From positions 2,609,035 through 2,673,034 of the forward strand of contig NZ_CP156660.1 of assembly GCF_039851975.1 (NCBI RefSeq): a stretch of 64,000 bases of DNA, given 5' to 3'. This DNA comes from Desulfoscipio sp. XC116. GTDB lineage: Bacteria > Bacillota > Desulfotomaculia > Desulfotomaculales > Desulfallaceae. Shown here in pieces: positions 19,231 to 24,108 of this stretch. A program made the position numbers and the translations under genes. A model generated the notes under the pieces. That model saw only the letters and a program-made list of their open reading frames with translations. It was not told the origin of the DNA and did no database searches. Numbering within the stretch: the first letter of the stretch is position 1; the number at the start of each line of letters is the position of its first letter.

Positions 19231-19512
19231 TTAAGCGGTTTCAGTCTGCACGGTTCTCTTCATTTTCTTCACCGGTATATTAGCCACAAGCGCCACCTGA
19301 TTTTCGTTGCTGTCCAGCGATACTTCCAGCGCATGCTCATCAATCTCCATATAATTAGAAATTACTTGAATCAGCTCGGATTTCAATGTTTGTAATAGTT
19401 CCGGTGAAACGCCGGCACGATCGTGTACAAGTACCAAACGCAATCTCTCTTTAGCCACAGCTCTGCTGGAATGGTTCTCACGGCCGAAAATTCGGTTAAT
19501 AAACTCCAGCAT
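19231..19512 (-). CDS. minE: Cell division topological specificity factor MinE
   Basis: 93 residues, normal MinE length. MinE stimulates the ATPase of membrane-bound MinD and drives pole-to-pole oscillation. The anti-MinCD segment and dimer domain are seen in AVAKERLRLVLVHDRAGVSP and ELIQVISNYMEID. ATG follows a G-rich ribosome site. It comes 21 bp behind minD. The presence of MinE rather than DivIVA-only control is usual in Clostridia but not in Bacillus subtilis. Confidence 0.95.
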   Translation of the reverse strand: MLEFINRIFGRENHSSRAVAKERLRLVLVHDRAGVSPELLQTLKSELIQVISNYMEIDEHALEVSLDSNENQVALVANIPVKKMKRTVQTETA

Positions 19513-19533: not shown

Positions 19534-20328
19534 TTACTTAAGACCAATTAGCCGCCTTAGCTTACTCATAAAACTACCACCCTCATCCAGGTCCATCATC
19601 GGCACATCTTCGCCCTTAATCCGACGCACAATATTGCGATAGGCCTGCCCGGACTTGGATGAATTATTCATTACTACCATTTCACCACGATTGGTGCTTA
19701 CAACCACCAACTCATCCTCCGGCACCACTCCAATTAAATCCACGGCCAGTATTTCGATAATATCGTCGATACTCATCATATCTCCGTGCTTGACCATTTG
19801 GTAGCGCAGCCGGTTGACCACCAGTTTAGGCTCCCGCAGGTCCTCCTTTTCCAGCAAACCAATAATGCGATCGGCATCCCGTACCGCTGAAACCTCGGGG
19901 GTGGTAACCACTATGGCCTGGTTGGCGCCGGCTATAGCATTGCGAAAACCTTGTTCAATACCGGCAGGACAATCAACAATAACATACTCAAAATCTTCTT
20001 TGATTTCTTCACAAAGAGCTCGCATTTGATCGGGATTAACCGCTGTTTTATCCTTGGTTTGCGCGGCGGGTAATAAAAACAGATTTTCAAAACGTTTATC
20101 TTTAATTAATGCTTTCCGGAAAGAACAATTACCGCCGGTAACATCCACCAGGTCATAAACAATGCGGTTTTCAAGACCCATAACCACATCCAGGTTGCGC
20201 AGTCCAATGTCGGCATCAATCAGACACACCTTGTTGCCCAAAGAAGCCAAACCAGCACCTAAATTAGCACTGGTGGTAGTTTTACCTACCCCTCCCTTGC
20301 CTGAAGTAATGACTATTACTTCTCCCAT
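19534..20328 (-). CDS. minD: Septum site-determining ATPase MinD
   Basis: 264 residues. Deviant Walker A GKGGVGKTT at 10-18, switch region YVIVDCPAGIEQGF, and a C-terminal amphipathic helix MSKLRRLIGL that anchors the ATP-bound dimer in the membrane. MinD recruits MinC to the poles and is released by MinE. The ATG follows GGAGGAAA. It is transcribed with minC in front and minE behind. Confidence 0.96.
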   Translation of the reverse strand: MGEVIVITSGKGGVGKTTTSANLGAGLASLGNKVCLIDADIGLRNLDVVMGLENRIVYDLVDVTGGNCSFRKALIKDKRFENLFLLPAAQTKDKTAVNPDQMRALCEEIKEDFEYVIVDCPAGIEQGFRNAIAGANQAIVVTTPEVSAVRDADRIIGLLEKEDLREPKLVVNRLRYQMVKHGDMMSIDDIIEILAVDLIGVVPEDELVVVSTNRGEMVVMNNSSKSGQAYRNIVRRIKGEDVPMMDLDEGGSFMSKLRRLIGLK

Positions 20329-20372: not shown

Positions 20373-20798
20373 TCATGCCTGACGTTCCGTGGTGGTTAAG
20401 AAAGCCTCAATTACCACAGTACCGTCTTTAATTCTGGCAATCTCAGGTACAATGGGGCCGGCATCTTCCTCATCCGGTGCCCGAGTAATATGGCCCGCTA
20501 TCCGTAACTGAGTTGGCCGCATACGAAAAGCATAAACAGCGGCCTTCTCATTGCCATCGGCACCTGCGTGCACCACTCCGCGTAAATATCCCATCACCAC
20601 CACATTGCCGGTAGCCACCACTTCCCCGCCGGGATTAATATCACCAACAATTACCACATTGCCATCATAATATATCGATTGGCCGGAACGCAGGGTGCGT
20701 TGGACCAGAACTGTGTTGTCGTCCATCATCTCGTCGGGCTTTTCCCCTCCTTTACCAGGGAATTGCACCAAATTCCCGCCAGTCCAATCCGGAGCCAC
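20373..20798 (-). CDS. minC: Septum site-determining protein MinC, C-terminal domain only
   Basis: About 141 residues; typical MinC has some 210-230. The beta-helical C-terminal domain that dimerises and binds MinD is complete: RTLRSGQSIYYDGNVVIVGD, NPGGEVVATGNVVVMGYLRG, and the A-H-A-G-type turn VVHAGADGN. The N-terminal domain, which acts on FtsZ in E. coli, is absent. A longer frame opens at 20882, but GGGAGGAG lies seven bases before a GTG at 20796-20798, giving MAPDWTGGNLVQF, and the extra 28 residues do not look like the N-domain. No trace of it is seen upstream. Same transcript as minD and minE. Confidence 0.88.
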   Translation of the reverse strand: MAPDWTGGNLVQFPGKGGEKPDEMMDDNTVLVQRTLRSGQSIYYDGNVVIVGDINPGGEVVATGNVVVMGYLRGVVHAGADGNEKAAVYAFRMRPTQLRIAGHITRAPDEEDAGPIVPEIARIKDGTVVIEAFLTTTERQA

Positions 20799-21273
20799 GA
20801 CTTTACTCCTCCCCGCAAAACCAGTTTTTTTCGGCATTAAAAGAAATTGATAACAGTTATTACTTCTACACCGCACAACCAAATCCTGCTAAAAAAATAA
20901 AAACCATTTTTTACACCATTTATATTTTGGAACTATTTTTATAAAAACCTGCCTCTGAAAATCCACGGGCTCGTCCCGGAGGAGGTCACCTGACATCTGC
21001 ATCCGGAGCGTAAAAAAACGCTCCCCACCGCTTCATTAATAAGCGGTGGAAAGAGCGCGCTTAATCTAAAACACCTCTTGTATCTATTTCGCGATGGAAC
21101 AGGTGTTTTAGCAATAACTTTTAGTATATTTTACACCTTATATCCATCTTTTGCACAACTGCTTCAACCTCCCCCGGATGTCGGCGCCGACCGGAAAACA
21201 CCAGACGCCGTCCGGGATGACTGCGACGCGGACCGGGACTGTGTCATTCGGGCGCTCCCGCAGGCAGTGTCGC
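20799..21273. other. Intergenic region between mrdA and minC
   Basis: No gene. It contains tandem hairpins at 21005-21049 behind mrdA and an A+T-rich stretch (20885-20945) where a minC promoter would lie. No remnant of a MinC N-domain was seen on the minus strand. Confidence 0.45.
21005..21049 (-). terminator. Tandem hairpins with T-run, likely terminator
   Basis: On the minus strand CCACCGCTT pairs with AAGCGGTGG (21025-21049), then GGAGCG, seven T and CGCTCC (21005-21024) make a second hairpin with the T-run in its loop. This probably ends the mreBCD-mrdA transcript and gives minCDE separate expression. Confidence 0.5.
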
Positions 21274-24108
21274 TTAAGCCGGCGGCGGCTGTTCAGTCCC
21301 GTCCGGCGGCGGTTGTTGCTCAGTCCCGTTCGGTGACGGCTGCTGCTCAGTCTCGTCCGGCGCTGTCTGAGACTGTGTCGGTTCGGATGCTTCCTCAGGT
21401 GGTGTTGTTCCGGCCGGCGGCCGCTGCTCAGTCTCATCCGGCGGCGACTGCTGTGCCGGCGGGGCGGACACCACCGGTGGCACCTGAGTAGTGGGCTGAG
21501 AAGCAGGCTGAGAAGAAGTTGTGTGTACCGGTCGAGTTGGTGTTTCCGCCGGAGCATCTTGTACACTGTCCTGCCGAATCCGGGTTTGCTCATTCTCTTT
21601 TGCCGCTTGCTTCTTGGGGGACTTCTGTTCCCAGCCCGGCCAGTTTAAAGACGGCAGCGCATCCCAACCTTCCGGCAGATCCCCGCTGCCGGACAAATCC
21701 CGGTCGGAAGCATAAGTGTCCGCCGCAACACTGCCTGCTGTTTGCCCCTCTTCATCTTGGGACGCATTCGGCTTGGGATCGGCAAAATAAGCATCCAATA
21801 TCTGGCGGACAATGGGCCCGGCATAGCCACTGCCGGAATCGCCGTACTCCAGCACCACAGCCACGGCTATTTCGGGCTTTTCATACGGCGCATAAGACAC
21901 GAACAAAGCATGATTGCCCACTTTATTGCCACCTGCATCCGTCACCTCCGCAGTACCGGTTTTAGCCGCCACCGATTGCTTAAACCCTGCAAAAACCGCC
22001 GATCCGGTACCGTTGGGTGGCGTTGCCACCATATGCATGCCTTCCCGAAGAATTTGCAAATTGTCATGGTCAACGTTTACTTTGCTATTAACCTCAGGCT
22101 TAAATTCCTTAATTACTTGGCCGTCCGGTCCGACAATTTTATCCACCAAATAAGGCTTGTACAATGTGCCGTTATTGGCTATAGCCGCCACGTAATTAGC
22201 CAGCTGCAGTATTGTATAGGTATTACCCCCCTGCCCGATGGACATGTTGACGGTTTCATACTGCTGCCATTTCAGCTCCCATTCGTGTTTTTCTAGTTGT
22301 TTATCCAGTTCCTCATCTCTTTGTTTTTGCAATTGCTGTTTGCGGGTTTCGTCTGCGGCTTTTTCAATCTGTTCGTTCAGTTTGCGTACTTGCGCGAAAT
22401 CATCATTACCCGCAATCAACATACTCTTAACCAATTCATATTTCCACTCGGGAGTGGGTACCTGGCCGCTTATTTCACCCGGCAGCTTTATGCCGGTTTT
22501 TTCACCCAGCCCGAATTCACGCGCCATCTTAGCAATGGCGTCAACCCCGGCCATGCGCCCGTATGTGTAAAAATAAGTGTCACAGGACACCTCCAGCGCT
22601 TTGCGCAGGTCCACCGTACCATGACCGCCCGGCTTCCAGTCTTTGAAAATACCCTGGCCCAGCCGGTAATAACCGGGATCGGGCATTTTATAAGTGGGAT
22701 CCACGATTTTATTCTCCAGTATGGCCGCCGCCGTAACCATCTTAAAAGTTGATCCGGGCGGATAAATGGCCGACATAGTACGATTAAGCAGCGCACCGGA
22801 ATCCTGCAATTGCTGCCACTGAGCACCGGATAACCCGCCGGTGAATACACCCGGATTATATGAGGGATAACTGGCCATTGCCCGAATAGCCCCGGTGCGC
22901 ACATCTATAACCACCGCCGCGGCGGCTTTGGCCTTGCTATGCCCGGCATTTTGGACACGAGCGACCCCGTCCGCCAGTGCCTTCTCCGCAGCCGTCTGCA
23001 AATTAAGGTCAACCGTCAGCACCAGGTCGTCGCCCGGTACGGGCTGTTTTAAGCCCAAATCCCGCACCGGCCGGCCGCCGGCATCCACTTCCATCTGCCT
23101 GGCGCCGTGTTCACCGCGCAGGTACGACTCATATACTAATTCCAGCCCGTTTTGCCCATACAGATCGTTCATAAAGTAACCCTTGTCTTTATTCTCTTCG
23201 TACTGATCCTCCTTGATATTTTGCACATAGCCCAGCGCGTGAGCCAATAAATTTTCGTGTGGATAGGCACGCACGGGTTGGATATCCACCACCACCCCGG
23301 GCATTTCCATTTGCCTTTCCCGCAATGTCACCACTGTTTTAGAGGATATTCCCTCGGCCACCAATACAGGTTCGTATGGCCTGTACCATTTTTTCTCCCT
23401 GATGATTGCGCGCACGCCCGATTCTACCTCATAGACGGTTTTTCCCTCAAAGATATCTTCTTTATGCAGCATGGATACCAGTTCACTCAAAACATCGGTT
23501 TTCTTTTCCAGCCTGACCCCAAAGGATTGCAGGTTCTGCTGACGCAGCGCATCTACAGTGGAAGGATTATAAACCACGGCAATTTCTACCGGCGTACCCT
23601 CTTCTATCTTTATTTTATCGCTGCCGACCCGTTCTTTTATAATATCCTCAATAGCATTTTTTTTGGCCGTATAGGTAGCTTTATCATCCCCCCGGCTAAC
23701 TTCCTTGTTAAACTGCTCCGGCGTCTTACCGCTAATCTGTTGAAAATACTGCACTGATTCCTCATCCCCGGCCAGTAGCCAAGAAAGGGTATCGGCCATG
23801 CGTACCGTCTCCGGGCCAATACGGTCCAGGTACAAGTGGTAGGTGGTTCCCTCCAAACTCAAATCATTTATCGATACCGTATAAATAGGCTTGTTGGTAA
23901 CAATTTTTTCCCCGTTACGATCGAAAATTTCGCCCCGCGGCGCAAAAACCGGCACCAAGCGAATATAGTTATTGCGCGCCAGGGTGCGAAATTCCTCGGT
24001 CTGCACCAACTGCATAAAAGACAGCTTGGCCAGTAATATCAACAGGACCAAAAATGAAGCGCCCATTAAGTATTTCATTTTATATTCAACTAGTTTTTTT
24101 CTTTGCAT
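21274..24108 (-). CDS. mrdA: Penicillin-binding protein 2 (transpeptidase) with long tail
   Basis: 944 residues; PBP2 is usually 600-700. One membrane helix near 13-33, a dimerisation/pedestal domain to about 340, then the transpeptidase: active Ser453 in PPGSTFKMV, SCD at 508-510, KTGTA at 716-720. It cross-links peptidoglycan of the lateral wall with RodA. Two extras: a charged helical insertion at about 565-612 (rich in Lys, Glu, Gln) between the SCD and KTG boxes, and a tail of about 164 residues after 780 made of Pro, Gln, Thr and Glu with repeats of the type PPDGTEQQ. The tail would lie outside the membrane. It follows mreD by about 20 bp. Confidence 0.94.
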   Translation of the reverse strand: MQRKKLVEYKMKYLMGASFLVLLILLAKLSFMQLVQTEEFRTLARNNYIRLVPVFAPRGEIFDRNGEKIVTNKPIYTVSINDLSLEGTTYHLYLDRIGPETVRMADTLSWLLAGDEESVQYFQQISGKTPEQFNKEVSRGDDKATYTAKKNAIEDIIKERVGSDKIKIEEGTPVEIAVVYNPSTVDALRQQNLQSFGVRLEKKTDVLSELVSMLHKEDIFEGKTVYEVESGVRAIIREKKWYRPYEPVLVAEGISSKTVVTLRERQMEMPGVVVDIQPVRAYPHENLLAHALGYVQNIKEDQYEENKDKGYFMNDLYGQNGLELVYESYLRGEHGARQMEVDAGGRPVRDLGLKQPVPGDDLVLTVDLNLQTAAEKALADGVARVQNAGHSKAKAAAAVVIDVRTGAIRAMASYPSYNPGVFTGGLSGAQWQQLQDSGALLNRTMSAIYPPGSTFKMVTAAAILENKIVDPTYKMPDPGYYRLGQGIFKDWKPGGHGTVDLRKALEVSCDTYFYTYGRMAGVDAIAKMAREFGLGEKTGIKLPGEISGQVPTPEWKYELVKSMLIAGNDDFAQVRKLNEQIEKAADETRKQQLQKQRDEELDKQLEKHEWELKWQQYETVNMSIGQGGNTYTILQLANYVAAIANNGTLYKPYLVDKIVGPDGQVIKEFKPEVNSKVNVDHDNLQILREGMHMVATPPNGTGSAVFAGFKQSVAAKTGTAEVTDAGGNKVGNHALFVSYAPYEKPEIAVAVVLEYGDSGSGYAGPIVRQILDAYFADPKPNASQDEEGQTAGSVAADTYASDRDLSGSGDLPEGWDALPSLNWPGWEQKSPKKQAAKENEQTRIRQDSVQDAPAETPTRPVHTTSSQPASQPTTQVPPVVSAPPAQQSPPDETEQRPPAGTTPPEEASEPTQSQTAPDETEQQPSPNGTEQQPPPDGTEQPPPA

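Follow-up and report, generated by a model that had tools for sequence, protein, structure and literature searches.

The min operon in the window, the whole 64-kb stretch of DNA analysed here, raises the question of where the N-terminal part of MinC has gone. In E. coli and B. subtilis MinC is the product of one gene and joins an N-terminal domain (MinC_N) to a beta-helix C-terminal domain (MinC_C). The minC gene of the window likewise adjoins minD and encodes a beta-helix C-domain with the RSGQ motif. Unlike in those two species, two minC genes are present here, a C-domain-only (C-only) gene in the operon and a full-length gene elsewhere. According to the available text of PMC6803595, MinC-N of E. 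coli antagonises FtsZ assembly, and MinC-C on its own needs MinD, binds the C-terminal peptide of FtsZ and displaces FtsA from the ring. The features described below are listed in Table 1.

Table 1. Features of the minC locus in the window, and the second minC gene of the same genome.
Feature	Position	Strand	Remarks
minE	19231..19512	-	PF03776, 92.3 bits
minD	19534..20328	-	sole match in genome above TIGR01968 cut-off
minC, C-domain-only	20373..20798	-	141 aa, GTG start at 20798
Shine-Dalgarno GGGGAGGAG	20806..20814	-	7 nt ahead of minC GTG
sigma-H-like promoter of minC	20863..20889	-	GCAGGATTT-N11-GTAGAAG, one mismatch, in -10
intrinsic-terminator-like hairpin, mrdA-minC gap	21021..21053	-	13 pairs, T run; consensus match only
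mrdA (PBP2-type), upstream of minC	21274..24108	-	name from the first-pass annotation
full-length minC paralogue	G000:C1:1,516,806-1,517,489		227 aa, ∼1.1 Mb from window gene

In a profile search the window MinC matched PF03775 (MinC_C) at 118.3 bits with a complete beta-helix, and its TIGR01222 score of 105.4 bits was above the cut-off of 95.25. Neither of the two MinC_N models, PF05209 and PF22642, matched it. Judged by these profiles the gene is a C-domain MinC homologue and not a complete MinC, as the first-pass annotation had described it with the same coordinates, strand and frame. The beta-helix covers residues ∼29–133 and the RSGQ MinD-binding motif residues 37–40. In the AlphaFold model pLDDT was >90 in blocks between residues 31 and 100, and residues 1–25 were predicted to be disordered (pLDDT <50). 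The top Foldseek matches were chains D (E 1.0e-11) and C (E 6.1e-11) of 4v02, and nine chains from MinC of Aquifex, Thermotoga, Pseudomonas and E. coli were matched at E ≤0.001. The closest solved structure is the MinC C-domain-MinD complex of A. aeolicus, PDB 4V02 (phmmer E 1.9e-20), whose solved MinC chain comprises the C-domain only, 128 aa. A. aeolicus is without MinE according to the text available from PMC5548801, whereas minE is present in the window.

The start of minC was assigned to the GTG because GGGGAGGAG is located seven bases ahead of it. A ribosome site had earlier been placed at 20800–20812, close to the Shine-Dalgarno sequence, which actually lies at 20814–20806. The start position was kept across 7 aligned genomes of the genus, with GTG or TTG as the codon. 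The disordered N-terminal tail of the C-only MinC contains NLVxFPG in 15 rows of the own family, that of the window (20714–20798) included and L023 having NLVRLPG, and SLVKFPG is found in its place in two rows from another family; these could possibly be a short binding motif. The rows concerned besides the window are L015, L019, L021, L023, L026, L030, L032, L033, L034, L122, L128, L129, L134, L138, L140 and L141. A G-x-ERQG-like C-terminal tail is present in many C-only proteins of the order (20373–20390 in the window), with E in 37/54, R in 40/54 and Q in 31/54 at columns 138–140.

The gene order in the window is minC-minD-minE, and minC is linked to minD. Among the C-only loci of the order, minD was found in 54/54 and minE in 53/54. 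A terminator-like hairpin lies in the gap between mrdA and minC; 4 such sites were found in the 2.4 kb scanned versus 2.0 expected. No MinC_N was found between mrdA and minC. For the order, an N-domain HMM was built from 57 full-length copies and used to scan the upstream DNA of C-only loci, ∼1.5 kb in most. It gave 0 matches in all frames at 54 loci, so that the earlier claim of no N-domain remnant upstream holds in any frame for the window and 53 other loci; the profile has limited sensitivity, as it missed L202 with its weak PF05209 match (17.5 bits), and absence calls depend partly on draft genomes. On full-length loci the same HMM scored 115.9–166.0 bits in 57/58, and in the 58th, L078, it matched in the adjacent frame. 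The stop-to-stop frame before the C-domain was shorter than 70 residues in 53/54 C-only loci, which is too few for an N-domain, and the exception, L020, has a long open frame without a Pfam N-domain match. In the phylum seven C-only copies have a leader of ≥70 residues, and 0/7 matched MinC_N at E ≤1.

An error of sequencing or assembly that left a gap or frameshift in the mrdA-minC interval could in principle hide an N-domain, and the first-pass annotation had named this as the case that would overturn its reading. Draft genomes do contain such cases: L155 (G140) lies right at the end of a contig, another G140 contig carrying a MinC_N match, and in L078 the N and C parts stand in two frames. 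In 54/54 loci of the order, which represent different genomes, the architecture was identical and no frame contained an N-domain. This conserved C-only form led us to reject an artefact at the window minC as a very poor explanation, to which we give almost no weight. The full-length MinC of L078 belongs to G015, a draft of ∼630 contigs, and its split over two frames reflects either an error in the sequence or a disrupted gene; L078 was kept out of the N-domain counts and G015 out of the 51-genome identity comparison.

The window's genome (4.26 Mb, completeness listed 100) encodes two MinC_C proteins, and the second is the full-length paralogue in Table 1, which matched PF05209 at 53.2 bits, PF22642 at 37.1 bits and MinC_C at 93.7 bits. 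It has the same two domains as MinC of E. coli and B. subtilis, and also the lysine of FtsZ antagonism. By these matches the cell does possess an N-domain, encoded by a second MinC gene. The interpretation of the first-pass annotation was thus partly supported. Its proposal that the N-domain function is supplied elsewhere stood at the sequence level, although the supplier is a complete second MinC and not a separate MinC_N protein: the sole MinC_N match in the genome (E ≤0.001, either model) is the full-length paralogue. Its other proposal, that the C-domain alone inhibits division, failed for the window's genome and may hold in a few others (G216, G178). The suggested comparison group, Peptococcaceae, was roughly appropriate: the closest relatives with names that were found are Desulfoscipio, of Desulfallaceae, and Sporotomaculum. 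The paralogue scored 94.3 bits with TIGR01222, just under the cut-off, so annotation may mislead, as the C-only protein passes for minC and the complete MinC does not. No second MinD for the paralogue was found in the window's genome, where the MinD profile gave one match over the cut-off and 14 weaker matches, presumably to other ParA-type ATPases. One DivIVA is present in this genome.

The order sample comprised 60 genomes, 16 from the own family and 44 from 17 other families. A C-only MinC was found in 57/60, a copy with MinC_N in 59/60 and both in 56/60. The genomes with no C-only match were G014 (86% complete), G040 (96%) and G057 (92%), and the one with no full-length copy was G054 (93% complete; sub-threshold N matches only). 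The C-only places numbered 57, and 54 of them were examined (all except those of G030, G033 and G041). MinC_C was detected in 112/113 genomes of the class. The phylum sample comprised 109 genomes, 106 of them outside the order, and MinC_C and MinC_N positions were paired by eye. Promoter and residue counts for the phylum rest on the 90 loci examined in detail, not on every genome. L155, at its contig end, was used neither in the 94-row MinD tree nor for promoter counts and mean identities, but was kept among the 29 phylum C-only residue rows. These rows also include L202, later relabelled full-length on its PF05209 match and left out of the N-versus-C identity means. L179, a truncated frame, was likewise excluded when promoters were counted and identities averaged.

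Among the 106 non-order genomes there were 25 split pairs, the full-length copy of one, G162, being judged from the positions of the MinC_C and MinC_N matches. In 53 genomes a single copy had an in-frame MinC_N (six of these below the curated cut-off), and in six (G120, G166, G204, G129, G167, G205) a single copy had a frame of ≥200 residues and no MinC_N at E ≤0.001, so that the N-domain was detected in 53/61 single-copy MinCs. A short C-only MinC alone was found in G178 and G216, and two full-length copies in G127, G172 and G140, the operon copy of the last inferred from a MinC_N match on a separate contig. MinC was absent from 17/106. An off-operon full-length copy was present in 25/27 genomes with an operon C-only copy versus 1/62 others, which is an association among related genomes and not a count of independent events. 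On these counts the two-gene split is recurrent across the order and in other Bacillota. C-only MinC apparently stood alone in G216, G178, G085 and G068, listed as 92–99% complete, which indicates that a full-length copy is not indispensable and that the C-domain may suffice there; in G069 (85% complete) N matches were sub-threshold only. In G216 (L185) and G178 (L186), each with a listed completeness of 99%, the operon MinC is C-only and MinC_N gave no match at E ≤0.1, which makes them natural test cases for sufficiency of the C-domain. G127 (L168/L181) and G172 (L170/L182), of one family, both contain a pair of min loci, and every one of these loci includes a full-length minC, minD and a minE-like gene.

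The two copies differ in the residues that they keep. In the C-only copies of the order R37, G39, Q40, N55, R73, Q97, R99, R106 and E119 were kept in 54/54, and the serine of RSGQ in 53/54. The off-operon full-length copies of the order kept R37 and G39 in 58/58 and Q40 in 52/58, with N55 in 12/58, R73 in 17/58, Q97 in 16/58 and E119 in 10/58; R106 and P108 were also lost in most rows, and the beta-helix glycines were kept. Off-operon copies outside the order were intermediate (R73 14/25, E119 24/25). The order off-operon copies have H47 in 42/58, H55 in 45/58 and C72 in 48/58 (L004:9307–9990 (-)), where operon copies mostly have N47, N55 and L72. Metal binding by this H/C pattern was considered, and no claim is made for it. 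The changes that the full-length C-domain has undergone (N55 to H, L72 to C, loss of R73) would also be compatible with weakened MinD binding or with another partner. In the N-domain of E. coli MinC, G10 and F42 matter, and K9, G10 and F42 were invariant in 50/50 aligned full-length rows. Replacement of K9 (E. coli) or K12 (B. subtilis) strongly weakens FtsZ inhibition by MinC, as described in the accessible part of PMC11938149.

Sequence conservation is distributed in the same two genes as follows. Across the 51 genomes with both copies, mean pairwise identity was 0.689 for the C-only C-domain, close to the 0.757 of MinD (50 genomes), and 0.407 and 0.471 for the C- and N-domains of the full-length copy. 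In operon full-length MinC of the phylum the C-domain was the better conserved (0.509 vs 0.255 for N), N being higher in 0.6% of pairs. In contrast to this ordinary MinC, the pattern is reversed in the off-operon full-length copy of the order, with 0.406 for C vs 0.467 for N and N higher in 80.8% of pairs. In the phylum, full-length copies outside the operon were in between (C 0.460 vs N 0.394); as they keep more of the C-domain and N was the higher in just 21.0% of pairs, the reversal belongs to the order.

Expression of minCD in B. subtilis is under sigma-H. Upstream regions were scored for RNAGGAWWW-N11/12-RNNGAAT with ≤1 mismatch, taking N11/12 as the presumed spacing between the boxes, and stretches elsewhere in the same loci were used as backgrounds. 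The sigma-H boxes are given as RNAGGAWWW and RNNGAATWW in the available text of PMC8510167. A site with ≤1 mismatch was found in 52/54 C-only upstream regions of the order, that of the window included (background 2/305), and in 46/58 off-operon full-length ones (background 10/340). Perfect sites were present in 27/54 C-only regions, not including the window minC, and in 22/58 off-operon regions of the order. For the phylum the counts were 25/37 for operon full-length copies (background 2/210), 16/26 for C-only (5/150) and 19/25 for off-operon copies (5/140), the last two weaker than the order results. The window as a whole has 11 such sites on both strands, the minC site among them. The paralogue in the window's genome has a perfect sigma-H-like site that begins 61 bases ahead of its TTG start. 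A simple scan for sigma-70 promoter-like sites was negative on the minC strand. Both minC genes appear to be switched on from a sigma-H-type promoter, although a match to the consensus is no proof of sigma-H.

The 53 rows from the order clustered together in the MinD tree (SH-aLRT 96). Quick MinD trees needed 5 state changes with 118 rows or 8 with 94 rows, and a single origin for 57 C-only rows was not rejected (AU p 0.529). Having considered repeated, independent losses of the N-domain, we do not claim them, as one origin is compatible with this test. The off-operon full-length copies grouped together at modest supports, L160 (G140) and, weakly, L166 falling outside. A tree of the C-domain was set aside, its alignment columns being too few for the number of rows. 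Minus minD and minE, which were seen in 0/58 off-operon full-length loci of the order within the flank examined, these loci have a neighbourhood of their own: a Nudix gene is beside minC in 55/58, and on the other side a glgA-like gene is found in 30 loci and a galT-like gene in 21, the three names being our reading of the sequences without a family search. The Nudix gene was also found in 4/25 phylum off-operon loci, for which flanks were shorter; all operon loci lacked it. Most simply, an old duplication occurred once, after which the operon copy lost its N-domain and the C-domain of the other copy diverged.

From domain content, gene context, co-occurrence, residue retention and loss, and promoter motifs we infer how the two proteins may act, and an ancient two-MinC system with divided labour is probable. 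The operon copy would have lost its N-domain and specialised as the partner of MinD. The C-only MinC would dimerise through the beta-helix, bind MinD through RSGQ and probably engage the FtsZ C-terminal peptide, as MinC-C of E. coli does. The full-length copy would carry the FtsZ-depolymerising N-domain, and the RSGQ that it retains would let the same MinD recruit it, whether as a homodimer on the same MinD surface or paired with the C-only protein in a heterodimer. As a sigma-H-like promoter is predicted for both genes, the two proteins would be made together. The pair seems to fit the two-pronged model outlined in the available text of PMC11938149, C-domain docking followed by N-domain action, with the prongs placed on two genes.

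It is unlikely, in our judgement, that the two proteins serve separate pathways, in which C-only MinC with MinDE would be a sufficient inhibitor of vegetative division and the full-length protein a specialised effector without MinD, e.g. in sporulation. The C-only protein would then compete for the FtsZ tail, block lateral association and possibly form MinCD copolymers. The genomes G216 and G178, 99% complete with C-only alone, would agree with this, and so would overproduced E. coli MinC-C, which with MinD blocks division and binds the FtsZ tail (PMC6803595, in the part available). The C-domain of the order full-length copies has also lost most operon-type invariants, and no minD is present in the examined flank. 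However, these copies keep RSGQ (R and G throughout, Q in most), which argues for continued MinD binding, and the predicted promoter type is common to both genes. We regard as more doubtful still that C-only MinC is a tuner which occupies MinD, heterodimerises with the full-length protein and lowers the amount of N-domain on MinD as a natural dominant-negative. RSGQ and the beta-helix glycines are kept in both copies, and MinC C-domains dimerise in the solved structures described in the accessible text of PMC6771821; yet C-only MinC is the better conserved, operon-encoded member, and it persists where the full-length copy was not found and so needs a function of its own.

Returning to the system with divided labour, its C-only member has the domain content of the engineered E. 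coli MinC-C that was studied with MinD (PMC6803595, as far as its text is available). That protein is a laboratory truncation, whereas the form in the window is native, order-wide and equipped with a short disordered tail. No description of paired C-only and full-length MinC was found by literature searches confined to open-access papers. We suggest only tentatively, and as an unlikely extension, that MinC is heteromeric in part of Bacillota, C-only MinC forming a MinD-bound scaffold into which the full-length protein is inserted at a sigma-H-set ratio, so that the N-domain dose is adjustable. If so, the N-domain on MinD would be tunable, e.g. at the switch from mid-cell to polar division at sporulation.

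Arguments over the shares of the N-domain (FtsZ depolymerisation) and of the MinD-bound C-domain (FtsZ-tail binding, MinCD copolymers) have drawn chiefly on engineered truncations and mutants. In the present case the two activities seem to be divided between two genes, an arrangement maintained throughout the order, some genomes apparently having the C-part only. This natural sorting would make the question of the two MinC domains testable by deletion of natural genes.
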